From the NCBI RefSeq assembly GCF_025629245.1, contig NZ_JANZXN010000030.1, positions 62,001-126,000 on the forward strand: DNA of 64,000 nucleotides. Direction: 5' to 3'. Each line of letters opens with the position of its first letter. Within the stretch, counting starts at the first letter, position 1. Both the position numbers and the translations under genes were made by a program. Positions 19,410 to 38,955 of the stretch are shown here, piece by piece. This DNA comes from Natronobiforma cellulositropha. Lineage in GTDB: Archaea > Halobacteriota > Halobacteria > Halobacteriales > Natrialbaceae. A model generated the notes under the pieces. That model did no database searches. It saw only the letters and a list, made by a program, of their open reading frames with translations, and was not told the origin of the DNA.

Positions 19410-20327
19410 ATGGAGCGTGCTATCGAAACCAATGCGTTGACGAAGTCGTACGGGGACGTCGTCGCGCTCGACAGCCTCTCGATCACGGTCGACGCCGGGG
19501 AGGTGTTCGGATTTTTAGGCCCGAACGGGGCCGGAAAGACGACCACGATCGACATCCTCCTCGACTTCATCCGGCCGACCTCGGGAAGCGCATCGATCAT
19601 GGGCTACGACACCCAGTGCGAGACCGGAGCGGTTCGCGAGCGCGTTGGCGTCTTGCCCGACGGGTTCGACCTCTGGGGGCGCTCGTCAGGCTACAGCCAC
19701 CTCGAGTTCGCCCGCCGCTCGAAGGGAGCGGACGACGACCCCGACGAACTGCTCGAACGGGTCGGTCTCGACCCCGAGGATGCCGAGCGGCCGGTCAGTA
19801 ACTACTCGAAGGGGATGTACCAGCGGCTGGGGATGGCGATGGCGCTGGTTGGCGACCCGGAGGTACTGATCTTAGACGAGCCCTCGACCGGTCTCGACCC
19901 CCACGGCATCCGAACGATGCAGGACATCGTCCGCGAGGAAGCGGCCGGCGGGACGACCGTCTTCTTCTCGAGTCACCTCTTAGAGCAGGTCGAGGCCGTC
20001 TGTGACCGGGTCGCCATCCTCAAAGACGGCGCGTTGCTCACGGTCGATTCGATCGGTGGGTTGCGAGAGACCGCCGGTCTCGGCTCACAGTTAGTCGTCG
20101 AGGTGACCGACGTGCCGGAGATCGATCTGACGACGATCGACGGCGTGACGGCGGTCACTACCGAAGCAGGCCGCCTCCGGGTCACCTACACGGACCCGAC
20201 GGCCAAAGAGACCGTCATCACCCGTCTCAGCAGTGCCGGTGCGGGCGTGCGTGACTTCACGACCGACGAACCGTCGCTCGAGGACCTCTTTACGGCCTAC
20301 ACCGAACCGACGACGGTGGAAGTATGA
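19410..20327 (+). CDS. ABC transporter ATP-binding protein
   Basis: The 305-residue ATPase has Walker A GPNGAGKT at residues 37-44, a signature region SKGMYQRLGMAMAL, and Walker B VLILDEPSTGLDP. A C-terminal extension of about 90 residues follows, as in CcmA/NosF-type exporter ATPases. It would power the permease encoded by the next gene, which it overlaps by 4 nt (ATGA). A GTTTAAC box lies about 29 nt before the ATG, fitting a leaderless start. The transported substrate is not identifiable. Confidence 0.92.
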   Translation: MERAIETNALTKSYGDVVALDSLSITVDAGEVFGFLGPNGAGKTTTIDILLDFIRPTSGSASIMGYDTQCETGAVRERVGVLPDGFDLWGRSSGYSHLEFARRSKGADDDPDELLERVGLDPEDAERPVSNYSKGMYQRLGMAMALVGDPEVLILDEPSTGLDPHGIRTMQDIVREEAAGGTTVFFSSHLLEQVEAVCDRVAILKDGALLTVDSIGGLRETAGLGSQLVVEVTDVPEIDLTTIDGVTAVTTEAGRLRVTYTDPTAKETVITRLSSAGAGVRDFTTDEPSLEDLFTAYTEPTTVEV

Positions 20328-21220
20328 GCTGGCTGCTGATCGCGCAGAAGGATTTCGAGGACGTCGTCCGCTCGCGGATGGTCTGGAGCATCGTCGCCCT
20401 CTACGCCGTGCTGATGGGGATCGCGACGATGGGGGCGAACCCCGACACCCTCGGCGGCGGTGAGATCGAAGCGGTGATCAACATGTTCATGACGCTCGCC
20501 GGCGAGCTGTTGATCCCGCTGATCGCGCTGATGATCGGCTACATGGCCATCGTCGGCGAGCGCCAGTCGGGGAGCCTGCGGATGCTGTTCGGACTCTCAC
20601 ACAGCCGCCGCGACGTCTTCGTCGGCAAGCTCGTGAGCCGGCTCACGCTCATGAGTATCGTCGCCGTGATCACGTGCGCGCTGGTCGGCGTCTTCACCTA
20701 CGTCCGGTTCGGGTCGCTACCGATGGCCACCTTCGCCCAGTTCCTCGGCGTGACGCTCGTCATGGCGGTCACGTTCACCGCACTCGCCGTGAGCATCTCC
20801 GCGGTGTCGGCGACCAGAATGCAGGCGCTGGGCGGCGCACTCGGCAGTTACGTCGTCTTCGCCCTGCTGTGGCACCCCCTCACCGCAGGCGTCCACTACC
20901 TACTCGAGGGCGAACTCGCCGGGCTCGAGCCAGCGGGCTGGTACCTCTTCCTCCAGCGTCTCAGCCCGCTGACGGCGTACCGACAGACCGTCGCCTCCGT
21001 CATCGACCAGTACCTCTGGTCGATGTTCGGGTGGCCGAACATCGTCGAGGACATCCCGCCCGAGGAGGTGACGGCCGACGCGCTCGCGTTGACCAACCGC
21101 GCCGGTGGCGAGTTACCCGTCTACCTCGGCGACGGCGTCGCCCTGCTCACGCTGCTCGCGTGGATCGCGATTCCGGCGGCCGTCGCCTACTGGGCGTTCG
21201 AGCGTGCGGACCTGAACTGA
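20324..21220 (+). CDS. ABC transporter permease (ABC-2, NosY-like)
   Basis: The 298-residue membrane protein has about six helices and, near residue 75, GERQSGSLRMLFGLSHSRRDVFVGKLVSR, the cytoplasmic coupling motif (E-x-x-x-G-S/T-L) of the ABC-2/NosY family. It follows its ATPase with an ATGA overlap. Its TGA directly abuts the stop codon of the convergent permease gene at 21221, leaving no intergenic space for separate terminators. The two neighbouring ABC systems are thus tail to tail. The substrate is unknown. Confidence 0.88.
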   Translation: MSWLLIAQKDFEDVVRSRMVWSIVALYAVLMGIATMGANPDTLGGGEIEAVINMFMTLAGELLIPLIALMIGYMAIVGERQSGSLRMLFGLSHSRRDVFVGKLVSRLTLMSIVAVITCALVGVFTYVRFGSLPMATFAQFLGVTLVMAVTFTALAVSISAVSATRMQALGGALGSYVVFALLWHPLTAGVHYLLEGELAGLEPAGWYLFLQRLSPLTAYRQTVASVIDQYLWSMFGWPNIVEDIPPEEVTADALALTNRAGGELPVYLGDGVALLTLLAWIAIPAAVAYWAFERADLN

Positions 21221-22012
21221 TCAGTAATCGCCCAGCACGCCCAGTCTCCGGGCGCGCTTCTGTGACCGTTGAAACACCAGGTAGCCGAGCGCGAGGTAGC
21301 CGACGGCGGTCACCACCAGGATGGCGAGCGACGACGGCGGGAGTTCCCAGAGGCGGATGCCGTCGCGCATCGCCCGCTGGAGGAGGTGGCTCCCCTGGAC
21401 CAGCGGCAACAGCACCGTCCACTCCCACTCGAGTGCCGGGGCGGCGACGAGACCGACGAAGCCGAACTGGAGCAGTCCCGTCCAGTTGCTGACGCTCTTG
21501 TAGAGGACGGTCACGCCGGCCATCGCGAAGCCGACGCCGAGCACCGAGAGGAGCGTCGCGACCGCCAGCGGGACGATGGTGAGCACGTCGACGTGGAGGC
21601 GCGTGCCGGTGACGGCGAGCATCACGACGAGCAAGAGGGCGGCGTAGACGAACGCGAGGACGAGTTTGGCGACCGACTTCGCGAAGAGGACGTTCGCGAA
21701 GCCGAAGGGTGAGACGAAGTGGCGCTCGAGGGTGCCCCAGCGCGCCTCGGCCTGGATGTCCTCGGCGATGGTCATGTAGGCGGTGGTCGCGAGCATCCAG
21801 AGGAAGTAGCCGACGACGACGGCGTCGAGCGAGTCGGCGAACGCGCCGCCGGCGACGGCCGTGCCGCCGACGAAGAGGATGGCGAAGATGATGCTGTGGA
21901 CGACGACGGCACCCATGGCGTCGACCGGATAGCGGACGAAGACGAGCAGTTCGCGGCGCAAGACGGCGACGAAGAGGTGGCCGTAGCCACCGAGCGGCAT
22001 CGACGCCATCAC
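21221..22012 (-). CDS. ABC-2 type transporter permease
   Basis: The 263-residue protein has about six membrane helices and the cytoplasmic segment EDIQAEARWGTLERHFVSPFGFANVLFAKS, the E-x-x-x-G-T-L-E-x-x-x-x-S-P signature of ABC-2 exporters. It is translated after the ATPase gene with a 4-nt overlap. The two form an exporter distinct from the convergent 19.4-21.2 kb pair. A drug, lipid or peptide cargo is possible; none can be assigned. Confidence 0.88.
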   Translation of the reverse strand: MMASMPLGGYGHLFVAVLRRELLVFVRYPVDAMGAVVVHSIIFAILFVGGTAVAGGAFADSLDAVVVGYFLWMLATTAYMTIAEDIQAEARWGTLERHFVSPFGFANVLFAKSVAKLVLAFVYAALLLVVMLAVTGTRLHVDVLTIVPLAVATLLSVLGVGFAMAGVTVLYKSVSNWTGLLQFGFVGLVAAPALEWEWTVLLPLVQGSHLLQRAMRDGIRLWELPPSSLAILVVTAVGYLALGYLVFQRSQKRARRLGVLGDY

Positions 22013-23034
22013 GGGTCACCGCCGGTCAGGCGGACGAACACGTCCTCGAAGGCGGGTGTGAGCGTCTCGACGGCCGAGAGGCGTACGTCCTCGGACTCGA
22101 GAACGGCCACGAGCCGGTAGAACTCGCGGCTGTCGGTCGAGAGTTCGAGGCGCGTCCGGTCGCCGACGTGGGTGATCTCGTCGATCGGAACCGTCGCGTC
22201 GAGTCGCTCGAGCGTCCGCTCGTCGAGCCGGCCGACCGTGATCCGGTAGCCGGTCACCTCGAGTGCGCCGACGAGGTTCTCGACGGTGTCGTCCGCGACG
22301 ACGGCGCCGTCGTCGATGACGATGACGCGGTCGCAGACGTCCTCGATGACGTCCATGTCGTGACTCGAGAGGACGACCGTCACGTCCGCCTCGCTCGCGA
22401 GCGTACGGAGTTCGTTCCGGAGGGTGAGCGAACTCTCGACGTCGAGACCGAGGGTCGGTTCGTCGAGGAAGGTGACGGCGACGTCGTGGGCGAGCGTGCT
22501 GGCGATCGCCGCGCGTTGTTTGACGCCGCGAGAGACGTTCCTGACCTGAGTGTCGGCGTACTCGGTGAGACCGAACCGGTCGATGAGGTCCTCGTGGCGG
22601 TCGGCCACCGTGTCGGGGTCCTCACCGGCGATGCTCGCGAAGTACCGGAGGTTCTCCCGAACTGTGAGCCGCCAGTAGAGGTTTCGTGCGCCCTCCATCA
22701 TCGCCTCGACCCGGCCGTAGGCGCGGCGTGGTGCGTCGTGGACGGAGACGCCGTCGATCTCGACGCGCCCGCTGTCGGGGACGACCAGCCCGAGCAGACA
22801 CTTTATCAGGGTCGTCTTCCCGGCCCCGTTCGGGCCGAGCAGGCCGACGATCGATCCGGACGGGATCTCGAAGGAGACGTCGTCGACGGCGACGACCGCG
22901 TCCGGGCCGTCGCCGAAGCGCTTCGAGAGGTTCGTCACGCGGACGGCCGGACGGGCGGACGAATCCGTCGCGGCGGTACGGTTCGACCGGTCCCGCTCGA
23001 GGGGGACGGGCGCAGCCTGCGGTGGCGGAACCAT
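22009..23034 (-). CDS. ABC transporter ATP-binding protein (DrrA-like)
   Basis: The 341-residue ATPase has Walker A GPNGAGKTTLIK, a signature segment NVSRGVKQRAAIASTLAH and Walker B VTFLDEPTLGLDVE, followed by an H-loop His in SSHDMDVIEDV. About 25 hydrophilic residues precede the first beta strand, so an internal start closer to residue 28 cannot be excluded. It pairs with the ABC-2 permease downstream. It is divergent from the flavin oxidoreductase gene at 23134. Confidence 0.9.
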   Translation of the reverse strand: MVPPPQAAPVPLERDRSNRTAATDSSARPAVRVTNLSKRFGDGPDAVVAVDDVSFEIPSGSIVGLLGPNGAGKTTLIKCLLGLVVPDSGRVEIDGVSVHDAPRRAYGRVEAMMEGARNLYWRLTVRENLRYFASIAGEDPDTVADRHEDLIDRFGLTEYADTQVRNVSRGVKQRAAIASTLAHDVAVTFLDEPTLGLDVESSLTLRNELRTLASEADVTVVLSSHDMDVIEDVCDRVIVIDDGAVVADDTVENLVGALEVTGYRITVGRLDERTLERLDATVPIDEITHVGDRTRLELSTDSREFYRLVAVLESEDVRLSAVETLTPAFEDVFVRLTGGDP

Positions 23035-23133: not shown

Positions 23134-24414
23134 ATGACGACTCTAGGTGTGTCGTTCGAGGGGATGCCGCACTTCCCGCTCAAGCGACTTCCGAACGGCT
23201 ACGTCGTACCGGAGCTCTCGGTCGCCGAGATCATCGACCGACACAGAGCGGGACTTCGAGAAGGGGTCGAACTGGCGGTCGCCGCCGAGTCACTCGGCTA
23301 CGAGTACGTCGTCCACTCCGAACACCACGCGAACTTACTCTCGACGGTGTCACCGAACCCGATTCTCACACAGACTGCGATCGCCAGCCAGACCGACGAG
23401 ATCAGACTGCTCCAGATGGCGAACATCCTCCCCTGGCACGAACCCGTCCGCCTCGCCGAACAGCTCTCGATGCTCGACGTGCTGAGCGACGGCCGGGTCG
23501 ACGTCGGCATCGGCTGGGGCGGAACGGACCCCGCCGCCGAGACCCTGGGCCAGTACTGGGGCGGCACACCCGTCGACGAGACGAAAAACCAGCTCTCGTT
23601 CGAGGAGAAGTACGAACTCCTGCTCGAGGCCTGGACCAGTGACCTCGTCACCCACCGCGGACAGTTTCACCAGGTGCCGCCGGCCTACACGGGACACGAG
23701 AAGCGACAGGAGTACTTCTACTTCGCCGACGACGTCTGTGAGTACAGCCCGGAAGACTACCTGAACATCGTCCGCGAGACGCCCACCCTGGAGGCGCTCC
23801 CGATCCTGCCGCGGCCGGAACAACAGCCCCATCCACAGCTCTGGAAGCCCGCGCTCTCGGCGCACTCGGCCGCGTGGGCCGCACGCCGTGGGATGAACGT
23901 CTGTACGCACGTCTTCGACATCGAGAGGACGGGCGAACTGGTCGACACCTACTACGAGGCGGCCGAGGCGGCCGACTGGCCCGACCGGCGCGAGGCGGTC
24001 GCCGGCGGGCCGTTCAGACGCGGCTGGGACGAGCGCTCGAACCGCGGTATCGGCGTGATCGTCCCCGTCTTCAACACGGCGGTCGCCGACGAGGCGACCG
24101 TCGACCGCTGGAAACTCGGCATCGAGTACGTCCGCTCGCGCAAGGAGGGCGCACACGAGGTCGTCGACGGCAGACTCGAGATCGACGTCGACGCGTTCGT
24201 CGAAGAGAGCGACGTGCCGGTCGTCGGCGACAGCGAGGCGATCCTCGCCCAACTCGAGTCGTTCGTCGAGACCTGCGGGTTCGAAGACGCCTGCTTCATC
24301 CTCGATCCGAACACGATCGGTCTCACCTTCGAGGAACGGCGAACACAGCTCGAGGCGCTCGCTCGAGACGTCCGGCCGGGGCTCGAGGACGTGCTCTCGG
24401 CGTCCGTCCGGTAA
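23134..24414 (+). CDS. LLM-class flavin-dependent oxidoreductase
   Basis: The 426-residue protein is a luciferase-like monooxygenase family member: YEYVVHSEHHANLL, SPNPILTQTAIASQTDEIRLLQ, and RVDVGIGWGG give the TIM-barrel flavin-binding pattern. It is longer than the F420-type relative at 16.8 kb, with an insertion after residue 155 and a C-terminal extension. A CTAAATATACG box begins about 30 nt before the ATG, a leaderless arrangement. It could be a monooxygenase or a hydride-transfer enzyme. Whether it belongs to the biosynthetic locus that follows is unclear. Confidence 0.85.
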   Translation: MTTLGVSFEGMPHFPLKRLPNGYVVPELSVAEIIDRHRAGLREGVELAVAAESLGYEYVVHSEHHANLLSTVSPNPILTQTAIASQTDEIRLLQMANILPWHEPVRLAEQLSMLDVLSDGRVDVGIGWGGTDPAAETLGQYWGGTPVDETKNQLSFEEKYELLLEAWTSDLVTHRGQFHQVPPAYTGHEKRQEYFYFADDVCEYSPEDYLNIVRETPTLEALPILPRPEQQPHPQLWKPALSAHSAAWAARRGMNVCTHVFDIERTGELVDTYYEAAEAADWPDRREAVAGGPFRRGWDERSNRGIGVIVPVFNTAVADEATVDRWKLGIEYVRSRKEGAHEVVDGRLEIDVDAFVEESDVPVVGDSEAILAQLESFVETCGFEDACFILDPNTIGLTFEERRTQLEALARDVRPGLEDVLSASVR

Positions 24415-24495: not shown

Positions 24496-25734
24496 GTGAG
24501 TGATCTACGATCGAACAGGGAGTTCATGAGCCTCCTCGCCGGACGGGTGATAACGAACATCGGCGACAGTCTGTACTTCATCGCCGCGATGTGGCTGGTC
24601 TTCGAGCTGACCGGGTCGGCGCTGTACACGGGAATCGCGGGCTTTCTGGTCAGAGGTCCCGCGGCGCTGCAGTTTCTCCTGGGTCCGCTGGTCGACGACT
24701 GGTCGTTACGGCGCATCCTGGTCGGCACCCAGTTGATCCAGGGTGTCGTTATTCTCGCGATACCCATCGTCGCGTTCACGGGTCACCTGTCGGTGTGGGC
24801 CGTCCTCGCCGTGATGCCGATTCTCTCGCTGTTGAACCAGTTCGTCTACCCGGCGCAGTCGGCGGCGCTGCCACAGCTCGTCGAGGACGAACAACTGGTG
24901 CAGGCGAACTCCCTGTTCGCGATGGCCCGAAACGGAATGGACATGCTGTTCAACGCCGTCAGTGGCGTCCTCATCGCGATCCTCGGAGCGGTCATCATCT
25001 TCCTCATCGACGCGGTAACCTTCTTCATCGCCGCCTTCCTCTTCGCCGGCGTCGTCCTCACCTCCGACATCGAGGGGAAGATGGGCGAAGCGGACGAGGA
25101 ACCCGAGCAGAGCTACATGGAGAAGCTCATGGAGGGGATCAACTACGTCCGTGGCTCGGTGCTCGTCGCCATCGTCTACGGCGCGTTGTTGGCGAACTTC
25201 GTCTTCGGTGCCGGCATCGCCGTCTTCCCCGCCTTCGCCGACCAGATCGGTGGCTCGGTCGCCTACGGACTGCTCATGTCCGTCGCCGGCGCGGGCGTCT
25301 TCGCCGGTGCCATGCTCTCGAACCTCGTCGATCAGTACCCCTACGGCTGGTTCCAGATCTACAGCAAGGTGTTCGCCGGTGCCTGTATCGCCGCCGCGGT
25401 CTACGTCCTCTGGCTACCGGCGACGCTCGCACTCGTCTTCATCGGCTTCATCGCCATCGGGATGGACGGCCCGATGACCGAGTCGATGATCCAGTCGAGC
25501 GTCCCCGAATCGCTGCTCGGACGCGTCTCCTCGCTCATGGGCAGCGTCAGCACCGCCATGATCCCGGTCGGGGCACTCCTCGGCGGCGTGCTCAGCGAGT
25601 TCATCGGCGTCAACGGCGTCATGTACCTCGTCGCCGCCTCCGCGGCCTTCTACGGCGTCTACTTCCTCCTCTACCCCCCGCTCAGAGCGCTCCCGCCGGT
25701 CGCACAGATGGACGCCTCTACCCTCCGTCTCTGA
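24496..25734 (+). CDS. MFS exporter (MefA/EntS-like), candidate lanthipeptide exporter
   Basis: The 412-residue protein begins with GTG and has 11-12 membrane helices. The N-terminus (SLLAGRVITNIGDSLYFIAAMWLVFELTGSALYTG) and the QSAALPQLVEDEQLVQANSL segment match the MFS_3 family of macrolide and siderophore exporters such as MefA and EntS. An AACTTATATGAT box lies roughly 25-35 nt before the GTG. It is followed at 90 nt by the GNAT gene on the same strand. No LanT-type peptidase-ABC exporter is present near lanM, so this MFS protein is the best local candidate to export the peptide product; that is inference. Confidence 0.88.
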   Translation: MSDLRSNREFMSLLAGRVITNIGDSLYFIAAMWLVFELTGSALYTGIAGFLVRGPAALQFLLGPLVDDWSLRRILVGTQLIQGVVILAIPIVAFTGHLSVWAVLAVMPILSLLNQFVYPAQSAALPQLVEDEQLVQANSLFAMARNGMDMLFNAVSGVLIAILGAVIIFLIDAVTFFIAAFLFAGVVLTSDIEGKMGEADEEPEQSYMEKLMEGINYVRGSVLVAIVYGALLANFVFGAGIAVFPAFADQIGGSVAYGLLMSVAGAGVFAGAMLSNLVDQYPYGWFQIYSKVFAGACIAAAVYVLWLPATLALVFIGFIAIGMDGPMTESMIQSSVPESLLGRVSSLMGSVSTAMIPVGALLGGVLSEFIGVNGVMYLVAASAAFYGVYFLLYPPLRALPPVAQMDASTLRL

Positions 25735-25823
25735 GGATCCGGCCACGCACGACTCGAGCGAGCCACACCGTCCCGCGATCTCCACTACCTATTTAGCGGA
25801 TCGAACGGGACCTACACCAACCG

Positions 25824-27026
25824 ATGTCCGAAGCCGTCACCTACGAGGAAGTCCCGACCCGTGAGTACGAAACCGTCTCGGCGTTCGTCCGCTACTCGTT
25901 CGACGCCGAGAGCGGTGCGGACGCCGACGACGACACCTACCGGGCGCTCGTCGAGAAAGACGTCGTCACCCCCTTCGGCGTCTACGCCGACGGCACGCTA
26001 CAGTCGGTGATCCTCGAGGTCGACACCCAGGTCCGGATCCGCGACCGAACCCACGACGCGACCATCCTCTCGTTCATCGCGACGCCGCCCGAGTACCGCC
26101 GGGGCGGGTCGCTCTCGGCCGGGTTTCCGAAGGTGTTCGCGTCGTGTGTCGAGCGCGGCTACGACATCTGTCTCGGCCGAACGTTCAAACACGGCTTCTA
26201 CACGCAGTTCGGCGGCGAGATGGTGAGCACGCACGCTCGGTGGACGTGTGAGCCGAGCACGCTCGTCTCCACGGTCGACCGGCCGCGCGGACGGTTCCGT
26301 CGGCTGACGCCCGCCGACTGGCGTGAGATCGACGCGGTCCACCGGGCGTTCAGCGGCGAGTACGGTCTCTCGTTCGAGCGGAGCCAGGCCTACTGGAACG
26401 AGGTGACGTTCCAGCCCTACGAGAAACGCCACCACATCGCCGGCTGGGAGCACGACGGAGAGCTTCGCGGCTACGTCGTCTACGACATCACCACGGAGAA
26501 CGGGCAAACCGTCCTCCGCGAACTCGACACGAGCTACCGCGACTACGAGGCGCTCTCACACCTGCTCTACTACCTCGGCAACCACGACTCACAGGTCGAC
26601 GAAGTCGCCTTCGTCACGCCCGAAGACGCCGCCGTCTTCTCACTCGTCGACCGAAACGGTCTCTCGTGTGAGCGTCGGCCCGGTCCCATCTTCCGGGTGA
26701 CGAACGTCGCCAACGCCCTCGAGCGGGTTCGTTACCCGCCAGATCTCGAGGGAACGGTCACGCTCGCGGTCAGCGACGAGACCGCCCCCTGGAACGACGA
26801 GACCTACCGCCTCTCGGTGGCCGACGGCGACGCGACCTGTACCGTCTCGAGCGACGAGCCGGCGGCGAGACTGGACGTGCGCGCGTTCACACAGCTGCTC
26901 GTCGGCTACCACGACGCCGAGACGCTCGAGGAGATTTCGACGCTCACCGTCGAGGACGAGCGGACGCGCACGTTCCTCTCGCGTGCGTTTCCGCGTCAGC
27001 GGGTGTTCCTCCGCGACGAGGTCTGA
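25824..27026 (+). CDS. Eis-like GNAT N-acetyl/acyltransferase
   Basis: The 400-residue protein has the Eis layout: an N-terminal GNAT domain with the acyl-CoA loop region TPPEYRRGGSLSAGFPKVFASCVERGYDICLG, a second GNAT-like half (WNEVTFQPYEKRHHIAGWEHDGELRGYVVYDI), and a C-terminal sterol-carrier-like domain ending with LDVRAFTQLLVGYHDAETLEE. Eis proteins transfer acetyl or longer acyl groups to amines. Its last 31 bp overlap the 3' end of lanM on the opposite strand. In goadvionin and lipolanthine pathways a GNAT enzyme joins an acyl chain to a lanthipeptide, so a role in acylating the local peptide is possible but unproven. Confidence 0.85.
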   Translation: MSEAVTYEEVPTREYETVSAFVRYSFDAESGADADDDTYRALVEKDVVTPFGVYADGTLQSVILEVDTQVRIRDRTHDATILSFIATPPEYRRGGSLSAGFPKVFASCVERGYDICLGRTFKHGFYTQFGGEMVSTHARWTCEPSTLVSTVDRPRGRFRRLTPADWREIDAVHRAFSGEYGLSFERSQAYWNEVTFQPYEKRHHIAGWEHDGELRGYVVYDITTENGQTVLRELDTSYRDYEALSHLLYYLGNHDSQVDEVAFVTPEDAAVFSLVDRNGLSCERRPGPIFRVTNVANALERVRYPPDLEGTVTLAVSDETAPWNDETYRLSVADGDATCTVSSDEPAARLDVRAFTQLLVGYHDAETLEEISTLTVEDERTRTFLSRAFPRQRVFLRDEV

Positions 27027-30000
27027 TCCCAGAACAGGACCGGCGGGAGCGACGGCTCACAGAGGCGAAGGAGCGTGTAGCCGATTCCGGACTCGCCGTC
27101 GAAGAACGAGGGGTTGTACCACCGGTCGGTCCCCCAAGGAACGGTGAACCGGCCGGACTCGTGGCTACGCTCGACGGTCGCACCCGCCAGACGGCGCGCC
27201 GCGCGTTCGGACGCTGGCCGGTCGCAGTGGCGTCCGGTCTCGAGCAGGAGTTCGATGCGCGTACAGTTCCCGGCGTAGACGTGGTCGTGCGGAGCGAGCG
27301 GTGCGTCTGCGAGCGCGTCACAGACCGAGCGCGCCTCGTCCCGGAGGCGCTCGTCACCCGTGTAGCGGTACAGGTCGAGTCTGGCGAGACCCTGGCCCGC
27401 TCGCCCGTCACACCAGCCGTTGGTCGTCTGCGCTCGCGTCTGGATGCGCAGGTCGGGACAGGGGTCCCTCGAGAGACCGACGCGGCCGTACTCGATCGTC
27501 TCGAGGGCGGTCTCGCGGTGGCGCTCGTCGCCGGTGTGCTCGGCGAGACGGGCGAGCGCGGTGGCGATGGCGTCACCGCCGTGAGCGACGCCGAGGCGGC
27601 TCGTCTCCCGCGGGTCGACGTCCCAGGAGGAGAGACTGGTGGGATCGATCTCGTCGACGTCGAGTTTCCACATGTCGATGCCGCTCGCGTCGGTTCGGTG
27701 TGCCTGCAGGTAGGCACCGGCGAGTGTCGCCCGCTCGAGGACGGTCTCCTCGCCCGTCCCCTCGTAGAGCGCCAGCAGGCCGTGGATCAGTCCGGAACTC
27801 CCGCGGTGTGGGCCGAGGTGGTTGTCGTCCTCGAGTCGTGCGGGCGTCACCGTCCGGGCGGCTGCGAGTGCCGCGTCGACGTACCGGGGTTCTTCGAGGA
27901 GGTCGCCGACCGTCGCGAGACCGTAGATCACCGACCCGACGCCGAGGGTCCCGCCGAGTTTCATCATCTCGAAGGGGCGGTCGTCCGCGAGTTCATCGAG
28001 CGTCGGCCGGAGGACGCGGCCGGCCGCCTCGCGGTAGTCGTCCCGGCCGGAGACGGCGGCGAGCGCCGCCAGAAACGTCGCGATGCCGACCCGGCCGGTG
28101 TAGAGGTTGTCCGGCATCTTCGGCAAGTACGCACCCGAGACGCGGTGTTCGCGCATCCCCCAGTAGAGCGAGCCGTCGGGTGCGACGCGTGCGTGCTCGT
28201 GGAGGCGACGGGCGATATCGTGGGCGGTCTCGAGGGCGCGCTCGTCTGTGAGGAGGTCGGTGGCCGTGTCGGGACCAGTCCGCGGCGGCGTCGGGTGTGA
28301 GAAGCGTCGGGGTGTGTAGGCCAGTTCGACGTAGGCCAGCTGCTCGTCGAGGTCGTCCTCGCAGAGACCCTCGAGCGTCCGGTAGGTGGTCGCGAGTGGC
28401 GGCTCGTCGAACTCGATCCCGGTCGGGCCGTCGGCGTGGACCAGCGCGGTGTCGTCAGCGGCGACGGTGAACCGGGGCACGTCGAGCCGCCACAGCGACG
28501 CGCACTCGGTCTCGTACAGCGGCCACAGCCGGGTGTCGGTCTCACCCTGTGCGAACGGCCGGGCGAGCGTCTCGAGGCGCTGGGAGAACGCCAGGCCGTC
28601 GCGGAGGTACTTCGGCGTCTCGAGCAACGAACAGAGTTTGCCGTAGACGGCAGTCGAACGGTAGAGAAACCGGATCTCCGCGCCCTCGAAGCGCTCGAGT
28701 GGACTCCCGGGCGAACAGAGCGTCTCGCGCTGCTCGAGGAGAAAGCGATACATCGCCTCGAATCCCTCGAGAATCGCGTCGGCGTGGCGGGCGGGGTCGG
28801 TGGGCGCCCCGTCGAGCGTCGGGAGGTTTCGCCCCTCGATCCGTGTCTCCCGGGCGAACGAGAGCTCCATGCGGTCGGTGTTGATCGCTTCGTACACCGG
28901 CCGGTCGACGTTCTCGACGGTGGCGAGCGCGCTCGCGAAGCCGTTCTGGTCTCGGACGTCCGCAGCGGGAACGAACAGCGGGAGCAGGTGTGTCGAGAGG
29001 ACGGAGTCGGTGGCGACCGAGAGTCCGTCGTCGAGGTCCGCGTGTTCGGTCTCGATATCCGGCGGGTGAAAGAGCGTCTCGAGGTCGACGACCACCGGCT
29101 GTTCGCCCGCCGCGACGACGTTCTCGAGGTGGCCGTCGGTGAAGTTGAGCGCGTAGGCCAGTGCGAGGAGGAGACCCGCCCGGTGGTAGTAGCGTTCGAC
29201 CGCCTCGCTCGAGTCACAGGGCTGTTCCTCGACCCACTCGGCCCAGCCGTAGCCGTCACGGGTGACGTGCGCGAGCGCCCGCAACTCGGGGAGGTCCCCG
29301 GTGTCGTTGATCCACTCGAGCAGTGACGAGAAGGCCGCCTCGACGGCCACCGAACGCGGCTTGTACGCGAGTGTCGTGCCGGAGGCGAACGAGACGGCGA
29401 AGACGAGTCGGCCGCGCTGGTGGACGTCGCCGAGGGGCTCGAGTCCGGTGACCGCTCCGAGTGTGACGCCCGCGAACCGAGCGCCGAGACGGTCCCTGTC
29501 GGCACGGAGCCGTGCGGCGAACTCCTCGACGACCGCGACCCACTGGTCGACGAGGGTGACGAGCAGTTTCGACAGCACCGCGTACTCCGTGAAGAACGCA
29601 CGGAGTCCCTCCCGGTGTGACTCGGCGACGAACGCGTCGTAGTACTCGCGGCGTCCGGGTGGGACGTCAGTGTCCTCGCCGAACGCCAGCGCCTCGTCGT
29701 AGCCGGCGACGTAGGACTTGAACTCGATGAACAGCGGGTGGGCACAGATAGACGAGAGCCGGGTCACCAGCCAGCGCTCGAGGTCCGCGAGCGCCTGCGC
29801 CGAGAGGTCACCGACCGGTCCCGGCGAGTCGAGCCGTGAGCGGGCGTGTGCCGCCAGCGGATAGAGGAGGTCGCCGAACGGATGCTCGTCGGCCCACGAG
29901 GGAGTCGACGCGCGGTCGTCGTCACTCCACGACTCGAGGGCCGCGATCAGGTCCTCGAGACCGTCGAGCCAGTCGGGCAGCGGTTCGTCGGGTGGCCAGT

Positions 30001-30238
30001 CGCCGGTGTCGATACCGACCTCGGAAGGAGGACTCGAGAGACCGGCCAGCTCGAGTCGCGTTCGAAACGCCCGCTCGTCCCCCTCGGCGACGGTCTCGCG
30101 CCAGCGCGCGAGCCACTCCTCGGCGTCGCCGTCGGTGTCGGTGTCGGCCGCCGTCGGTGTCGACTCGGCAGCCGCAGTGAGACGGTCCTCGAGCGTCCGG
30201 GCGCGAGCAGCGATGGCGTGTTTCTCCTGGGAGTCCAT
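26996..30238 (-). CDS. lanM: Class II lanthipeptide synthetase LanM
   Basis: The 1080-residue enzyme would dehydrate Ser/Thr in precursor peptides and close thioether rings. The N-terminal dehydratase half (DUF4135, about 115-655) has the kinase-like residues: Lys293 in AYKPRS, His370 and Asn373 in FTDGHLENVV, Asp385 in VVDLETLFHP, and RNLPTLDG at 470-477. The LanC-like half (about 665-1062) has His886 in GVAHGG and zinc ligand Cys943 in NGWCDG. The expected CHG/CCG zinc pair is Tyr988-Ala989 here (HVYAGNC). The ATG at 30238 follows a small ORF by 4 nt; codons further upstream are basic and unlike the family. Three precursor genes lie upstream. Confidence 0.93.
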   Translation of the reverse strand: MDSQEKHAIAARARTLEDRLTAAAESTPTAADTDTDGDAEEWLARWRETVAEGDERAFRTRLELAGLSSPPSEVGIDTGDWPPDEPLPDWLDGLEDLIAALESWSDDDRASTPSWADEHPFGDLLYPLAAHARSRLDSPGPVGDLSAQALADLERWLVTRLSSICAHPLFIEFKSYVAGYDEALAFGEDTDVPPGRREYYDAFVAESHREGLRAFFTEYAVLSKLLVTLVDQWVAVVEEFAARLRADRDRLGARFAGVTLGAVTGLEPLGDVHQRGRLVFAVSFASGTTLAYKPRSVAVEAAFSSLLEWINDTGDLPELRALAHVTRDGYGWAEWVEEQPCDSSEAVERYYHRAGLLLALAYALNFTDGHLENVVAAGEQPVVVDLETLFHPPDIETEHADLDDGLSVATDSVLSTHLLPLFVPAADVRDQNGFASALATVENVDRPVYEAINTDRMELSFARETRIEGRNLPTLDGAPTDPARHADAILEGFEAMYRFLLEQRETLCSPGSPLERFEGAEIRFLYRSTAVYGKLCSLLETPKYLRDGLAFSQRLETLARPFAQGETDTRLWPLYETECASLWRLDVPRFTVAADDTALVHADGPTGIEFDEPPLATTYRTLEGLCEDDLDEQLAYVELAYTPRRFSHPTPPRTGPDTATDLLTDERALETAHDIARRLHEHARVAPDGSLYWGMREHRVSGAYLPKMPDNLYTGRVGIATFLAALAAVSGRDDYREAAGRVLRPTLDELADDRPFEMMKLGGTLGVGSVIYGLATVGDLLEEPRYVDAALAAARTVTPARLEDDNHLGPHRGSSGLIHGLLALYEGTGEETVLERATLAGAYLQAHRTDASGIDMWKLDVDEIDPTSLSSWDVDPRETSRLGVAHGGDAIATALARLAEHTGDERHRETALETIEYGRVGLSRDPCPDLRIQTRAQTTNGWCDGRAGQGLARLDLYRYTGDERLRDEARSVCDALADAPLAPHDHVYAGNCTRIELLLETGRHCDRPASERAARRLAGATVERSHESGRFTVPWGTDRWYNPSFFDGESGIGYTLLRLCEPSLPPVLFWDQTSSRRNTR

Positions 30239-30242
30239 ACGT

Positions 30243-30347
30243 CTAGAGCAACGGTCGTCTCGGCGGGCTGGCGGTGTCGGTCGGTGCGGTATCGGCCGGT
30301 GGCAGTGTCCGCTCGGGAGACACGGCGGACTCACGTCTGAGAGACAT
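30243..30347 (-). CDS. Possible 34-aa leaderless ORF preceding lanM
   Basis: An ATG at 30347 sits 30 nt after a CTATTTTTAT box, the same spacing as for the precursor genes. It opens a 34-codon frame rich in Pro, Thr and Arg (MSLRRESAVSPERT..., ending RRPLL) that stops 4 nt before the lanM ATG. It has no Cys and is not a lanthipeptide precursor. It may be a translated leader that couples ribosomes into lanM, or a chance frame within an untranslated leader. Its existence as a protein is uncertain. Confidence 0.35.
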   Translation of the reverse strand: MSLRRESAVSPERTLPPADTAPTDTASPPRRPLL

Positions 30348-30367
30348 CAGCTTCACCGACGGCCGTA

Positions 30368-30383
30368 CTGATAAAAATAGGTG
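30368..30383 (-). promoter_or_regulatory. TATA-like promoter for lanM
   Basis: On the minus strand, CACCTATTTTTATCAG lies about 30 nt before the ATG of the 34-codon frame and about 140 nt before the lanM ATG. It shares the CACC-T-rich form of the precursor-gene promoters. Confidence 0.55.
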
Positions 30384-30455
30384 TCGATCCAGCTGAACGT
30401 GATCGGCCGGACCGAGGGGCACACCACGGCCCGTCCGAACCGATCCACACGGCAC

Positions 30456-30581
30456 TCAGTTGCAACTCGAGGACCAGCAGGAGTCCGGGACGAGCACCGT
30501 CCACCATCGGGCCTCGGCGGTCGGGTCCTCGCGCTCGTACATCGATTCCAGTCGGTCTTTCACGGTCTGGTTAGTCTCCAT
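30456..30581 (-). CDS. lanA: Lanthipeptide precursor LanA (copy 1, nearest lanM)
   Basis: This 41-codon gene encodes a charged leader and a C-terminal core PDSCWSSSCN. The leader segment VKDRLESMYEREDPTAE (residues 7-23) matches, with substitutions, the leaders of the two copies upstream, after which a hydrophobic ARWWTVLV insert differs from them. The core offers four Ser and two Cys for dehydration and lanthionine rings by the LanM encoded next to it. There is no GG or GA cleavage motif before the core. The gene has its own T-rich promoter. Its small size makes it easy to miss; support comes from the shared core in three copies and the adjacent LanM. Confidence 0.85.
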   Translation of the reverse strand: METNQTVKDRLESMYEREDPTAEARWWTVLVPDSCWSSSCN

Positions 30582-30604
30582 ATCACCCGAGAGTTCAGAC
30601 GAGA

Positions 30605-30624
30605 GCGTAAAAAACCTTGCGGTG
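30605..30624 (-). promoter_or_regulatory. Promoter of lanA copy 1
   Basis: On the minus strand CACCGCAAGGTTTTTTACGC precedes the ATG at 30581; the last TTTT run starts 31 nt before the start codon. The same CACCG-N-AGG-T-TTTTAC design precedes copy 3. Confidence 0.6.
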
Positions 30625-30687
30625 GTGATAGGTAGACCGGACGGTCACACAGCAGCGCAAAAAAATGGCGGTAGGTGGCGTCCGTGG

Positions 30688-30804
30688 TTACGCGCCACAG
30701 CTCGACGACCAGCAGGAGTCTTTCGGACCCTCGGTCTCGAGCGTGGGTTCGTCACGGGCGTACTGTGCTTCGAAGTGCTCTTTGAGCGACTTAGTTGCCG
30801 ACAT
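30688..30804 (-). CDS. lanA: Lanthipeptide precursor LanA (copy 2)
   Basis: The gene has 38 sense codons. The leader LKEHFEAQYARDEPTLETE (residues 7-25) is followed by GPK and the core DSCWSSSC with a terminal GA. Codons 9-36 are identical at the DNA level to copy 3 over 84 nt (30697-30780 versus 30941-31024), so the two arose by recent duplication or gene conversion, while the first eight codons and the last residues differ. It lies 106 nt upstream of copy 1 and has its own promoter. The product should be a substrate of the local LanM. Confidence 0.87.
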   Translation of the reverse strand: MSATKSLKEHFEAQYARDEPTLETEGPKDSCWSSSCGA

Positions 30805-31024
30805 GGCGGTCGAGAAATCGAAAAGTATGTTGAAAAGTCTATCGGTCACGAGCACTGTCTCGTTTCTCCGGACGGGTCACAGCCAGCGGTGCTGGCCGTC
30901 TCAGTCGGCAAAAGTGGGGCGCTACCGATTCGGTTCAGTTACAGCTCGACGACCAGCAGGAGTCTTTCGGACCCTCGGTCTCGAGCGTGGGTTCGTCACG
31001 GGCGTACTGTGCTTCGAAGTGCTC
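30697..31024. repeat. 84-nt perfect direct repeat (30697-30780 and 30941-31024)
   Basis: The two 84-base units are identical and lie 160 nt apart. They cover most of the leader and the core codons of lanA copies 2 and 3. The DNA between them differs, so the duplication is limited to the coding part or has been homogenised by gene conversion. Confidence 0.9.
30825..30847 (-). promoter_or_regulatory. Promoter of lanA copy 2
   Basis: On the minus strand ACCGATAGACTTTTCAACA (within this interval) precedes the ATG at 30804, with TTTT starting 32 nt before it. The ACCGATAG element is shared with copy 3. Confidence 0.6.
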
Positions 31025-31048
31025 ACGGAGCTGTGTCGATTCCGACAT
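30935..31048 (-). CDS. lanA: Lanthipeptide precursor LanA (copy 3)
   Basis: The gene has 37 sense codons: MSESTQLREHFEAQYARD opens the leader, then EPTLETEGPK and the core DSCWSSSCN. Two Cys (31 and 36) and Ser at 30, 33, 34 and 35 give the ring chemistry; Trp32 sits between. It differs from copy 2 only in the first eight codons and in ending with Asn instead of Gly-Ala. It is the first precursor gene of the minus-strand set and is divergent from the acyl carrier protein gene, whose ATG is 195 bp away. It has a typical leaderless promoter. Confidence 0.87.
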   Translation of the reverse strand: MSESTQLREHFEAQYARDEPTLETEGPKDSCWSSSCN

Positions 31049-31069
31049 ACAGTATCTGTATCGAACAGC

Positions 31070-31090
31070 ATCGTAAAATACCTATCGGTG
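31070..31090 (-). promoter_or_regulatory. Promoter of lanA copy 3
   Basis: On the minus strand CACCGATAGGTATTTTACG precedes the ATG at 31048 with the TTTT run starting 30 nt before it. Spacing implies little or no 5' leader. Confidence 0.65.
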
Positions 31091-31205
31091 ATAGTGAACG
31101 AATTTGCGGTGCCGTGGCCTGAGAGCACGCGGTGTCGTAGCCGGTGGCGAGCGTTCGACCGCAACGTGCTGGCGCGGTCGGCGATTGTGTTCCGGGGTGG
31201 TTGTA

Positions 31206-31220
31206 TCGGAATATTCAAGT
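31206..31220 (+). promoter_or_regulatory. Possible promoter of the ACP-ketosynthase operon
   Basis: The AT-rich GGAATATTCAAG lies about 25-35 nt before the ACP ATG at 31244, the usual distance in this window. It is weaker than the lanA promoters. The 195-bp space to lanA copy 3 would serve both directions. Confidence 0.4.
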
Positions 31221-31243
31221 ATCGATGATCCAATTGATTGCCA

Positions 31244-31489
31244 ATGTCGTCTGAGACAGCCGTGGATGGACCAGTGACGGAAATTATCGAGACTGCGCTC
31301 GGGGTCGATGCAGACGCGTTCGACGACGACACTGCCTTCGGTGCATCGGGCTTAGACGTCGACTCGATCACGATCGTCGAGATCGCCGAGATGGTCGACA
31401 TCGAACTCGGGGTACACGTGCCGAACGAGGACCTCGGCGACCTCGAGACCGTCGGCGACCTGAAGGCGTACGTGCGCGAACACCGCTGA
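31244..31489 (+). CDS. acpP: Acyl carrier protein
   Basis: The 81-residue acidic protein has the ACP four-helix pattern and the phosphopantetheine site Ser in GLDVDSITIVEIAEMVDIELG, matching the family DSLxxVEL motif. It would carry growing acyl chains as thioesters after modification by the AcpS encoded two genes on. The ATG at 31244 was chosen; a TTG two codons earlier is less likely. The ketosynthase gene starts 3 nt after its stop. ACPs are uncommon in archaea, whose lipids do not need them, so the operon is probably of bacterial origin. Confidence 0.92.
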   Translation: MSSETAVDGPVTEIIETALGVDADAFDDDTAFGASGLDVDSITIVEIAEMVDIELGVHVPNEDLGDLETVGDLKAYVREHR

Positions 31490-31492
31490 CCG

Positions 31493-32728
31493 ATGGCGCC
31501 GAACGACGTCGTCGTGACGGGAATCGGGTCGATTACGCCGCTCGGAGCGACCGCAGACGAGACGTGGGCGAACCTGTGTGAGGGAGTGAGCGCCACGGGA
31601 CCGGTGACGCGATTCGACCCCGACTCGTACCAGCAGTGTATCGACCTGGCGTGTGAGATCGACGCGGACCTGGACGAGCACCCGAACGTGAACCCGCGGC
31701 GGATGGGGCGGTACACCCAGTACGCCGTCGTCGCCGCGGCCGAAGCGCTCGCCGACGCCGGACTCGAGCCCGGAGGCGAGGCGTGGACGGCCGAGCGAGT
31801 GGGGACGAACGTCGGCTGTGGCGTCGGCGGGTTTCCCGAACAGGGCGAGGCGATGGCCGACCTCTACGCCGGTGAGCGACTCTCACCGCGATACATCCTC
31901 CAGTCGATCCCGAACCTCGCTTCGGGGTACGTGAGCATCGAGTTCGACGCCGGCGGGCCGAACCGGGCGCCGGCGACCGCGTGTGCGGCGGGCACCCACG
32001 CGATTGCGGGAGCCGTCGACGACGTTCGGCTCGGCCGGGCGGACGTGATGCTCGCCGGCGGCACCGGCGGTGGCGTGACGCCGACGAGCATGGCGGGGTT
32101 CGCCGCCCTCAGAGCGCTCAGCACGCACACCGAGCCACGCGAAGAAGCCGTCAAACCGTTCGACGAGCGCCGCGACGGCTTCGTCCTCAGCGAGGGAGCA
32201 GGTCTCCTCGTCCTCGAGTCGCGGGACCACGCCGCGGCGCGTGGAGCCGAGGTGATCGCCGAACTCACCGGCTGTGGCTCGAGCGCCGACGCGAGCCACC
32301 CGACCAAACCCCGCGAGGACGGCACGGGACTGAGCCGCGCCATCTCGAGCGCGCTCGAGGATGCAGGGTGTGCACCCGAGGCGGTCGACCACGTCAACGC
32401 CCACGCCACCGGTACGCCACACGGGGACCGACACGAGGCGCGGGCGCTGGCGAACGTCTTCGCGGACGTGCCGCCGGTGAGCGCGCTCAAATCGATGCTC
32501 GGGCACGCCCTCGGCGGTGCCGGCGCGATCGAAGCGGTCGCGGCGGTCCAGACGGTACGCGACGGGACGATACCGCCGACGATCAACTGTCAGCGCTCAG
32601 CGTCGGACATCGACGTGCCGGTCGTCACCGAGACGACCGAAACGCCCGTCGACGTCGTCGTGAGTAACTCCGCCGGGTTCGGCGGAACCAACGGCGTCCT
32701 CGTCTTCGAATCACCGACCGATGCCTGA
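31493..32728 (+). CDS. fabF: Beta-ketoacyl-ACP synthase II (FabF-like ketosynthase)
   Basis: The 411-residue thiolase-fold enzyme has the complete Cys-His-His triad: Cys in PATACAAGTHAIAGAV, His in NAHATGTPHGD, and His in KSMLGHALGGAGAIEA. GFGGTNGVLVFE closes the protein as in FabF. It would extend an ACP-bound acyl chain by condensation with malonyl-ACP. Because the Cys is present it is not a chain-length-factor partner. It overlaps acpS by 8 nt. The absence of a nearby FabH leaves the starter unit open. Confidence 0.93.
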   Translation: MAPNDVVVTGIGSITPLGATADETWANLCEGVSATGPVTRFDPDSYQQCIDLACEIDADLDEHPNVNPRRMGRYTQYAVVAAAEALADAGLEPGGEAWTAERVGTNVGCGVGGFPEQGEAMADLYAGERLSPRYILQSIPNLASGYVSIEFDAGGPNRAPATACAAGTHAIAGAVDDVRLGRADVMLAGGTGGGVTPTSMAGFAALRALSTHTEPREEAVKPFDERRDGFVLSEGAGLLVLESRDHAAARGAEVIAELTGCGSSADASHPTKPREDGTGLSRAISSALEDAGCAPEAVDHVNAHATGTPHGDRHEARALANVFADVPPVSALKSMLGHALGGAGAIEAVAAVQTVRDGTIPPTINCQRSASDIDVPVVTETTETPVDVVVSNSAGFGGTNGVLVFESPTDA

Positions 32729-33200
32729 GAGTACATCAGAGAGCCGTCCCGAATCACACGGCGGCGTCGCGGCGACGGACCACGCCGTCGCGGACGTCCG
32801 CGTCGGCGTCGACGTGCAGTCGATCTCGCGGTTTGCGGCGATGGACGACGCGGTCAGACGCTCGCTGCTCGAGCGCGTGTTCACCGACGACGAACGCGCC
32901 TACTGCGACGGCACCCGTCACCCGAACCAGCACTACGCCGTCCGGTGGGCAGCGAAGGAGGCGTTCGTGAAGACCCTCGACGACGCGTCGGCAGTGCCGT
33001 TCACCGGCGTCAGCGTCCGTCGAACCGACGAGCGACCGTCGATCGAGCTCAGCGACGTCTCGACGGCCGCGCTCGAGCGGAGCCTCGGGACCGCTCCCGG
33101 AGCGTGGACGATGGACGTGAGTCTCAGCCACGACCGGGACGCCGACACCGCCTTCGCGCAGGTCGTCGTCCTCGCGACCGGAGGGCGAGCGGATGACTGA
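32721..33200 (+). CDS. acpS: Holo-ACP synthase (4'-phosphopantetheinyl transferase, AcpS type)
   Basis: The 159-residue protein has an N-terminal acidic extension of about 25 residues and then the AcpS core: VGVDVQSISRF (magnesium-binding Asp), FTDDERAYC, RWAAKEAFVKTL (the WxxKEAxxK signature), and VSLSHDRDADTAFAQVVV. It transfers phosphopantetheine from CoA to the Ser of the ACP encoded at 31244. Overlaps of 8 nt with the genes on both sides show a tightly coupled operon. The presence of a dedicated AcpS supports the ACP being functional. Confidence 0.92.
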   Translation: MPESTSESRPESHGGVAATDHAVADVRVGVDVQSISRFAAMDDAVRRSLLERVFTDDERAYCDGTRHPNQHYAVRWAAKEAFVKTLDDASAVPFTGVSVRRTDERPSIELSDVSTAALERSLGTAPGAWTMDVSLSHDRDADTAFAQVVVLATGGRADD

Positions 33201-34110
33201 GACGGCGTTCGTCTTTCCCGGCCAGGGGAGTCAGACGCGACGGCCCATCGAGGCGTTTCTCGAGAGCTGGCCGGAGGCGGAGGCGGCGCTCGAGCGTCTC
33301 GAGGAGTCGGCCGCGATCCGTGAGCTACTCGAGTGTGACGACCCAGAAGTGCTCCGGGAGACCGTCCACACCCAGCAGTCGGTTCTCGCCGCGGGTATCG
33401 TGGTCTACGAGGCGGTCCGTGAGCGGTACGGACTCGTCCCCGATGTCGTCGCCGGACACAGCCTGGGACACATCACGGCGGCGACCGCCGCCGGGGTGTT
33501 CACGCCGGACGACGCGATAGCTCTCGTCGGCGAACGCGGCCGCGCGATGGCTACCGCCGAGGCGACCGACGGGCCGGGAACGATGCTGGCGGTACTGTTC
33601 GCCGACGTCGACCACGTCGAAACGGTGCTCGCCGACTACCCGTCCGTGGCGGTCGCGAGTTACAACGCGCCGCGACAGATGGTCATCAGCGGCGCTGAGC
33701 CGGCCGTCTACGACGCGGCGGAGGCGATCGAATCGGGCGCGGGGCGGGCACGCTGTGTCGAACTCGAGGTCGCCAGTGCATTTCACTCGCCGGTGATGGA
33801 CTCGGCGGTCGACCCGTTCGAGCGCCGTCTCGAGGCGACGCGCTTCGCCGACCCGGAGCGTCCGGTCGTCTCGGACGTGACTGGCGAGGTATACGAGCAC
33901 GCGAGCGTCGCCCGCCAGGCGTTCGCCGACCAACTCACCGCTCCGGTACGGTGGACGGCCGTCACGGAGGCCCTCGCGGACCGTGGGATCGAACGCGTCG
34001 TCGAACTCCCACCGGCAGGAACGCTCGCGGGGTTACTCGAGCGCTCGCCGTTCGAGTTCGACGTGGTCGCCCTCGAGCGACCGGAGCAGCTAGACACCCT
34101 TGAGCTATGA
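33193..34110 (+). CDS. fabD: Malonyl-CoA:ACP transacylase
   Basis: The 305-residue acyltransferase has FVFPGQGSQ at the N-terminus, the nucleophile Ser in VAGHSLGHITAATAAG (GHSLGE in most FabD; here the Glu is His), and the catalytic His in SAFHSPVMDSA. It would load malonyl units onto the ACP. The Arg that binds the malonyl carboxylate is expected near QQSVLAA/AxxR; I did not fix its position, so a different acyl specificity is possible. Its last 4 nt overlap the reductase gene. Confidence 0.92.
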   Translation: MTETAFVFPGQGSQTRRPIEAFLESWPEAEAALERLEESAAIRELLECDDPEVLRETVHTQQSVLAAGIVVYEAVRERYGLVPDVVAGHSLGHITAATAAGVFTPDDAIALVGERGRAMATAEATDGPGTMLAVLFADVDHVETVLADYPSVAVASYNAPRQMVISGAEPAVYDAAEAIESGAGRARCVELEVASAFHSPVMDSAVDPFERRLEATRFADPERPVVSDVTGEVYEHASVARQAFADQLTAPVRWTAVTEALADRGIERVVELPPAGTLAGLLERSPFEFDVVALERPEQLDTLEL

Positions 34111-34892
34111 CCGATAGAGACGATTCGATGGAGTTGAGCGACGAGGTCGCGCTGGTAACCGGCGGGACCAGAGGTATCGGACGGGCGATCACCGCGGCAT
34201 TCGCCGCACGCGGGGCGACCGTGATCGCGAACTACCACACTGACGAGGCGAGCGCGCGCGAAACGAGCGCCGACCTCGAGACCAGTCCCGGTGAGGTGGC
34301 GGTTCGCCAGTTCGACGTCGGCGACTACGACGCCGTCGACGGGGCGATCGAAGAGATCGAAGCCGAGTTCGGCTCGATCACCTCGCTCGTGAACAACGCG
34401 GCGATCATGGCCAACGAGCCGCTGATCCGGCTCGAACCCGACCAGTGGGAGCGTGTGATCCGGACCAACCTGACGGGGACGTACAACTGTACGCGACGCG
34501 TCGCCCGGTCGATGTTGTTCGGCGACGGCGGCAGTATCGTCTGTTGCAGTAGCGTGACGGCCCAGAAGGGGTGGGCCGGACAGTCGAACTACGCGGCGAG
34601 CAAGGCGGGAATCGTCGGCTTCGTTCAGTCGACGGCGCGGGAGTTAGCCGGCCGGTCGATCCGGGTCAACGCCGTCGCACCCGGCTACACGCGGACGGAC
34701 CTCTACGACGAGGTCGAAGCCGACCTCAGCGGCGTCGAGAGCGAAGCGGACATGGTCGCACAGGAGGGCATCCCGCAGGGTCGCATCGCCAGCCCGGACG
34801 AAATCGCCGAAGTGGTCGCGTTCCTAGCGAGCGAGCGCGCCTCGTACATCACCGGCGAGGTGGTGCGCGTCGACGGCGGACTACTCGCCTAG
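34107..34892 (+). CDS. fabG: 3-oxoacyl-ACP reductase (SDR family)
   Basis: The 261-residue short-chain dehydrogenase has the NADPH motif TGGTRGIGRAI, LVNNAAI, and the catalytic Ser-Tyr-Lys set in CCSSVTAQKGWAGQSNYAASKAG, followed by RVNAVAPGYTRTD. It would reduce the beta-keto group made by the ketosynthase to a beta-hydroxyl. No dehydratase (FabZ) or enoyl reductase lies nearby, so the local set alone would stop at a beta-hydroxyacyl chain. It is the last gene of the five-gene operon and is followed by a stable hairpin. Confidence 0.92.
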   Translation: MTDRDDSMELSDEVALVTGGTRGIGRAITAAFAARGATVIANYHTDEASARETSADLETSPGEVAVRQFDVGDYDAVDGAIEEIEAEFGSITSLVNNAAIMANEPLIRLEPDQWERVIRTNLTGTYNCTRRVARSMLFGDGGSIVCCSSVTAQKGWAGQSNYAASKAGIVGFVQSTARELAGRSIRVNAVAPGYTRTDLYDEVEADLSGVESEADMVAQEGIPQGRIASPDEIAEVVAFLASERASYITGEVVRVDGGLLA

Positions 34893-38793: not shown

Positions 38794-38955
38794 CACTACG
38801 GCTACCGGGCGCGACGACCAAAGTGCTCGACTTGCATACTCGGGTACGGTGGCTGTGTCCACGCTCGCCCGCACGCAGGCCCGCCGTCGAGACGGGCGAC
38901 TTTCGAGAGACGGGCGGTGGTTTATCCCGCTCACCGGTGTCGACTAGGCGAGACT

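Follow-up and report, generated by a model that had tools for sequence, protein, structure and literature searches.

A gene cluster at about 18.3-34.9 kb, in which a class II lanthipeptide module lies together with a self-contained acyl-ACP module, was found in the window, that is, the whole 64,000-nucleotide stretch of DNA analysed, part of the 3.76-Mb draft genome of the haloarchaeon Natronobiforma cellulositropha (G000 in the genome comparisons). We propose tentatively, at just short of an even chance, that the two modules are united in one biosynthetic cluster, and this single-pathway reading is slightly favoured over that of two neighbouring modules. The product may be the first archaeal ribosomal peptide decorated with a fatty acyl group, though these acyl genes are found by themselves more often than not. 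A tie to the lan genes beyond chance follows from a second co-location in the genome G251, the interleaving of the modules, the agreement of the cassette and LanM trees against RpoB and the association of SCxxxSC precursors with the cassette. Overall, the acylated-lanthipeptide interpretation of a preliminary description of this DNA was partly supported.

Cluster layout and lanthipeptide genes

The LanM with three precursors, the five-gene acyl operon at 195 bp from them, the GNAT and the MFS exporter were all recovered where the preliminary description had placed them (24496-34892), and its parts list was correct. The cluster is wider than that interval: its left limit was moved to about 18.3 kb to take in the ER, two ABC transporter pairs and the oxidoreductase LLM2 (Table 1). 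LLM1 may mark the left edge; among the related lan and cassette loci that were listed, none showed a match to it. The grouping goes beyond chance, since the precursor family is conserved upstream of LanM in three more genomes (G008, G031 and G251) and about 30 haloarchaeal loci share the order of the five acyl genes. A promoter scan of the divergent region between LanA3 and ACP gave no match with models that do not cover archaeal promoters. Further to the right, at 38740-39324, the window encodes a protein akin to the sensory rhodopsin transducer of Anabaena; genes for a globin and for a sugar-lactone oxidase-like protein lie close by.

Table 1. Features of the cluster in the window, and related precursors in other loci (positions in the locus named).
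Feature	Position	Strand	Evidence and remarks
LLM1, luciferase-like oxidoreductase	16803..17933	-	Pfam Bac_luciferase
ER, MDR-type enoyl-reductase/quinone oxidoreductase	18310..19287	-	Pfam ADH_N + ADH_zinc_N
ABC transporter ATPase	19410..20327	+	Pfam
ABC-2 permease	20324..21220	+	Pfam
ABC-2 permease	21221..22012	-	Pfam; 47% and 57% identity to permeases of the G251 cluster
ABC transporter ATPase	22009..23034	-	Pfam; 43% and 56% identity to ATPases of the G251 cluster
LLM2, luciferase-like oxidoreductase	23134..24414	+	Pfam Bac_luciferase
MFS exporter	24496..25734	+	Pfam, above cut-off
Eis-like GNAT N-acyl/acetyltransferase, candidate acyl-transfer enzyme	25824..27026	+	Pfam GNAT + GNAT-like + SCP2_2, above cut-off
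LanM, class II lanthipeptide synthetase	26996..30238	-	TIGR03897; Pfam DUF4135 + LANC_like
LanA1 precursor	30456..30581	-	Sequence METNQTVKDRLESMYEREDPTAEARWWTVLVPDSCWSSSCN; C-terminus VPDSCWSSSCN
LanA2 precursor	30688..30804	-	C-terminus KDSCWSSSCGA
LanA3 precursor	30935..31048	-	C-terminus KDSCWSSSCN
Divergent intergenic region, LanA3/ACP	31049..31243	.	195 bp, start codon to start codon
ACP	31244..31489	+	PF00550; phosphopantetheine Ser in LDVDSITIVE
KS, beta-ketoacyl-ACP synthase, FabF type	31493..32728	+	Pfam, NCBIfam FabF-like
PPTase, AcpS-type phosphopantetheinyl transferase	32721..33200	+	Pfam, NCBIfam
AT, FabD-type acyltransferase	33193..34110	+	Pfam, NCBIfam FabD-like
KR, FabG-type ketoreductase	34107..34892	+	Pfam, NCBIfam FabG-like
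Further (D/G)SCxxxSC precursors	L051 11136-11270; L052 11160-11321; L070 10777-10914; L082 15172-16351		

The class II assignment of the synthetase was correct: in the NCBIfam search LanM scored 649 bits against TIGR03897 lanti_2_LanM (cut-off 304) and 55 bits against the class III LanKC model (cut-off 575), and both the DUF4135 dehydratase and the LANC_like domains were present in Pfam. The dehydratase residues that are invariant across the alignment are retained, and in the ligand table of the cyclase the WC cysteine and the AHG His are kept with YA replacing the zinc-ligand CC, a site at which nearly all other haloarchaeal LanMs scored retain a CC or CH pair. Every zinc ligand is gone from the LanM of G008 and likewise from the second LanM of G251 (G251-C1); the LanMs with degenerate ligands, those of the window, G008 and G251-C1 (L051 and L070 loci), all come from cassette-bearing genomes. 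These three zinc-site-deficient enzymes are of the SCxxxSC type, and their occurrence in genomes with the cassette would fit an altered thiol chemistry linked to acylation. Class III cyclases work without zinc ligands, so that ring formation by the window LanM is possible though not assured; the incomplete site lowers confidence in ring formation, not in class II membership, and the ring chemistry, read from residues, is uncertain. By its predicted synthetase domains and precursors, this is a class II lanthipeptide cluster with an incomplete zinc site.

The precursors are 37-41 residues long in all, with short acidic leaders, and a leader (K/R)xxFExxYARxEPT followed by a core (D/G)SCxxxSC is common to those of the window, G008 and G031. 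This core family was found in four genomes only, in five lan clusters, and its spacing would allow crossed Ser-Cys/Cys-Ser bridges of the larlan kind. Larlan/DADC lanthipeptides are marked by two antiparallel chains linked through thioethers, with the loop cut. For the core SCWSSSCN carrying 2, 3 or 4 dehydrations, the calculated [M+H]+ is 837.2655, 819.2549 or 801.2443. A wider LanM scan of contigs gave matches mostly in cyanobacteria, and few extra haloarchaeal loci.

The acyl cassette and its association with lan genes

The ORFs of the acyl operon overlap or adjoin one another, all rightward, in the order ACP-KS-PPTase-AT-KR that the other haloarchaeal loci share, mostly with an ER. The KS exhibits the Cys-His-His triad by sequence (TACAAG, NAHATGT, LGHALGG) and 45-56% identity to KSs of other cassettes, and the AT, with its motifs GHSLG and AFHS, is predicted to be malonyl-type. 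The ER subfamily is normally found directly upstream of ACP; in the window it lies 12 kb away, beyond the lan and transporter genes. Its homologues adjoining ACP-KS in most cassette loci are 43-52% identical to it and the next paralogue in its own genome 34%; unlinked copies of the subfamily also exist, and in the ER tree the window protein falls in a polytomy, outside a well-supported clade of seven unlinked copies; its derivation from a cassette is possible rather than certain.

The cassette is a stand-alone mobile acyl module, recurrent in haloarchaea, and the idea that the operon is lan-specific was rejected because it is so widespread by itself. In the main sample of 392 Halobacteriales genomes, LanM was present in 41, KS in 17 and both in four (G000, G008, G227 and G251), which is not a significant genome-level co-occurrence (Fisher p = 0.09; 0.22 without the window); 13 of the 17 KS-positive genomes had no LanM, and neither had any of seven further KS genomes. 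Family-level searches gave the KS cassette in 14/125, 1/148 and 7/146 genomes, G251 being the sole carrier in the 148-genome draw from its family. Two of the roughly 30 cassette loci are near LanM, a proportion that counts against a single pathway; nevertheless, for about 29 cassettes, co-locations with LanM within 20 kb were expected 0.04 times by chance and observed twice (p = 8e-4; 0.04 without the window). The cassette was also found in 3/4 genomes with SCxxxSC precursors against 17/392 overall (p = 3e-4; 0.005 without the window), in a post hoc count. Wide occurrence of the fab-like operon without lan genes, named in the preliminary description as adverse to its proposal, tells against that proposal in part, and the lan ties remain beside it.

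The second cassette-plus-LanM cluster was found in G251, a genome of another family, where it spans about 17 kb on a replicon of 589 kb; its order is KR-AT-PPT-KS-ACP-ER, ABC ATPase-permease, five precursors with LanM, and finally LLM2 and a second KS. The five short SC-rich precursors end in SCxxxSC or close variants, and an MMPL-family exporter and the second KS, its Cys-His-His residues intact, are encoded there (L083 340-2802 and 4319-5599). The modules are interleaved in both the window and G251, where the lan genes have KS genes on either side.

In the concatenated cassette tree the window is sister to G008 (100/100), and so it is in the LanM tree (SH-aLRT 99, from a short search without bootstrap). 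The RpoB tree, in contrast, places the genome of the window within its own family (100/100), to which G008 does not belong, so that the two modules have a common history that departs from the species phylogeny. A single inherited lan-linked lineage for the window and G251 cassettes was rejected (AU p = 0.0005); since they do not group together, the two lan linkages do not represent one inherited cluster. In G008 the lan module and the cassette are on separate contigs, which counts against a single pathway, and adjacency across a contig break was sought and not found: there is no contig-end overlap and the lan contig terminates in rpoB. About 10 kb separate the G008 lan cluster (G008:C33:182010-201591; L193, L226) from rpoB, an uncommon setting for accessory biosynthesis genes.

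Proposed pathway and alternatives

In the pathway that we infer, the PPTase would charge the ACP and the FabD-type AT would load malonyl; the KS would then condense and the KR reduce, and the ER at 18310 could saturate the chain. As no dehydratase is encoded in the window cassette or with the ER, the chain would be beta-hydroxyacyl, or a dehydratase would be supplied from elsewhere in the genome. LanM would dehydrate Ser of the short SCWSSSC cores, on which crossed Ser-Cys/Cys-Ser rings of the larlan type may form in the absence of the usual zinc site, and LLM2 may reduce or oxidise the peptide. The Eis-like GNAT would move the acyl group onto the peptide, most likely at the new N-terminus or at a Lys before the core, and the MFS and ABC transporters would carry the product out of the cell and shield the producer. 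The full proposal, in which a type II acyl-ACP line feeds the SCxxxSC peptide of a zinc-site-deficient class II LanM as the first archaeal lipo-lanthipeptide pathway, with the cassette recruited at least two times, we hold to be conceivable and rather doubtful.

The evidence from the accessory genes is divided. The GNAT is Eis-like both by Pfam and by its PDB relatives, all of which are Eis/GNAT acetyltransferases of the acetyl-CoA type, and it is missing from the G251 cluster, two findings that count against a single pathway. The protein closest to it is the GNAT linked to LanM in G008 (41%), with unlinked paralogues at 32-34%; a lan-linked GNAT was found in two cassette genomes, and the lan cluster of the cassette-free genome G031 has none. 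This pattern is consistent with the predicted acyl transfer, though two cases prove nothing. LLM2 has LanM-linked counterparts in G008, in G251 and, as two copies, in G031; its best NCBIfam match is the MsnO8 family, below cut-off. Because it is present in G031, which has no cassette, LLM2 has the peptide as its more likely substrate, by analogy with LxmJ through reduction of dehydroalanine (PMC8498797), or through oxidation. The MFS gene is linked to LanM in G008, G031 and G251-C1.

The same linkages fit a reading with a substantial though lesser probability, namely two independent modules in a shared accessory-gene neighbourhood, one (LanA, LanM, LLM2, MFS, GNAT and ABC) making an unacylated lanthipeptide and the other a fatty acyl or beta-hydroxyacyl group for another end, such as a lipid, a storage compound or a signal. 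GNAT, MFS and LLM2 accompany LanM in G008 with no cassette nearby, as do MFS and LLM2 in G031. The cassettes, mostly lan-free, lie largely in housekeeping surroundings, which makes a lipid role possible, and some are on megaplasmids, for instance beside phaC in Haloferax mediterranei; the characterised haloarchaeal lanthipeptides were, moreover, reported without an acyl group (PMC10105419, PMC12144867). Against independence stand the second co-localisation in G251, the interleaved position of the ER and the cassette and LanM trees that agree against RpoB. Cooperation of the modules without a covalent hybrid, in which the GNAT would acetylate either the peptide or a target involved in immunity while the cassette would alter the lipids of the producer for self-protection, appears improbable: it agrees with the acetyltransferase relatives of the GNAT, with GNATs known in self-resistance (PMC13060382) and with the anti-archaeal action of haloarchaeal lanthipeptides (PMC10105419), but lipid remodelling is without direct evidence and the G251 cluster carries the cassette with no GNAT.

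The general view is that archaea do not produce long-chain fatty acids (PMC11948995). With a carrier-protein acyl module now seen twice beside lan genes, the question of an archaeal lipopeptide becomes testable, as does the role of the orphan haloarchaeal ACP-KS cassette, on which the haloarchaeal FAS and PKS literature searched was silent.

Comparison with known systems

The cassette of Haloferax mediterranei pHME505 (E6P09_RS15845-15870, L219 12826-18448), about 2 kb from phaC, has the same gene order as the window, its genes being a hypothetical gene, a quinone-oxidoreductase-type ER, ACP, KS, holo-ACP synthase, MAT and FabG, but no lan genes nearby. This species is a well-studied genetic model and would be convenient for finding the function of the cassette. 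In many stand-alone haloarchaeal cassettes an R2-like di-iron oxidase comes first; this ribonucleotide-reductase-small-chain-like protein regularly precedes ER-ACP-KS (L072, L073, L075-L078) and may oxidise the acyl chain.

The archalans, medlans and larlans (PMC10105419, PMC12144867) resemble the window system in their class II LanM, short acidic leaders, small Ser/Cys cores and haloarchaeal host, and the [ST]C...[ST]C spacing of larlans resembles SCxxxSC. The larlan core is STCTY...CPTCDF (PMC12144867). We found also a precursor in G242 (L069) ending in VSTCTY...CPTCDF, which matches the described LarA core, and one in G339 (L213) ending in VSTCTY...CHTCG, which looks like another larlan-type relative. 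The window has an ACP-KS operon and a linked GNAT; neither of these, nor an acyl group, is reported for any of the three groups, and the two papers characterising them mention no acylated product and no acyl synthesis genes (PMC10105419, PMC12144867); the window LanM, unlike theirs, is without part of the zinc site. That the medlans from Haloferax mediterranei, itself a cassette carrier, are reported without an acyl group (PMC12144867) counts against a single pathway.

Selidamides, including nostolysamides (PMC13060382), likewise combine a class II LanM with a GNAT acyltransferase. Their GNATs use long-chain acyl groups, NpuN preferring palmitoyl-CoA, with no dedicated cassette described (PMC13060382), and their precursors carry NHLP or Nif11 leaders, unlike those of the window, which have neither. 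In the lipolanthines or lipoavitides (microvionin, goadvionin, nocavioguas), as in the window, lanthipeptide genes adjoin carrier-protein acyl synthesis genes and a GNAT, and the dedicated FAS/PKS genes with an ACP that mark this family have their counterpart in the ACP, KS, PPTase, AT, KR and ER. Those systems are class III, whereas the window system is class II, archaeal and has an Eis-type GNAT; their GNAT joins the acyl chain to the peptide N-terminus, a role for which the window enzyme is a candidate only. Their LanD decarboxylase makes avionin, and no flavoprotein decarboxylase of the LanD type was among the Pfam assignments of the cluster, so no avionin would be made. Without class III LanKC and LanD, the family name lipolanthine used in the preliminary description does not apply, and the window cluster is at most lipolanthine- or selidamide-like.
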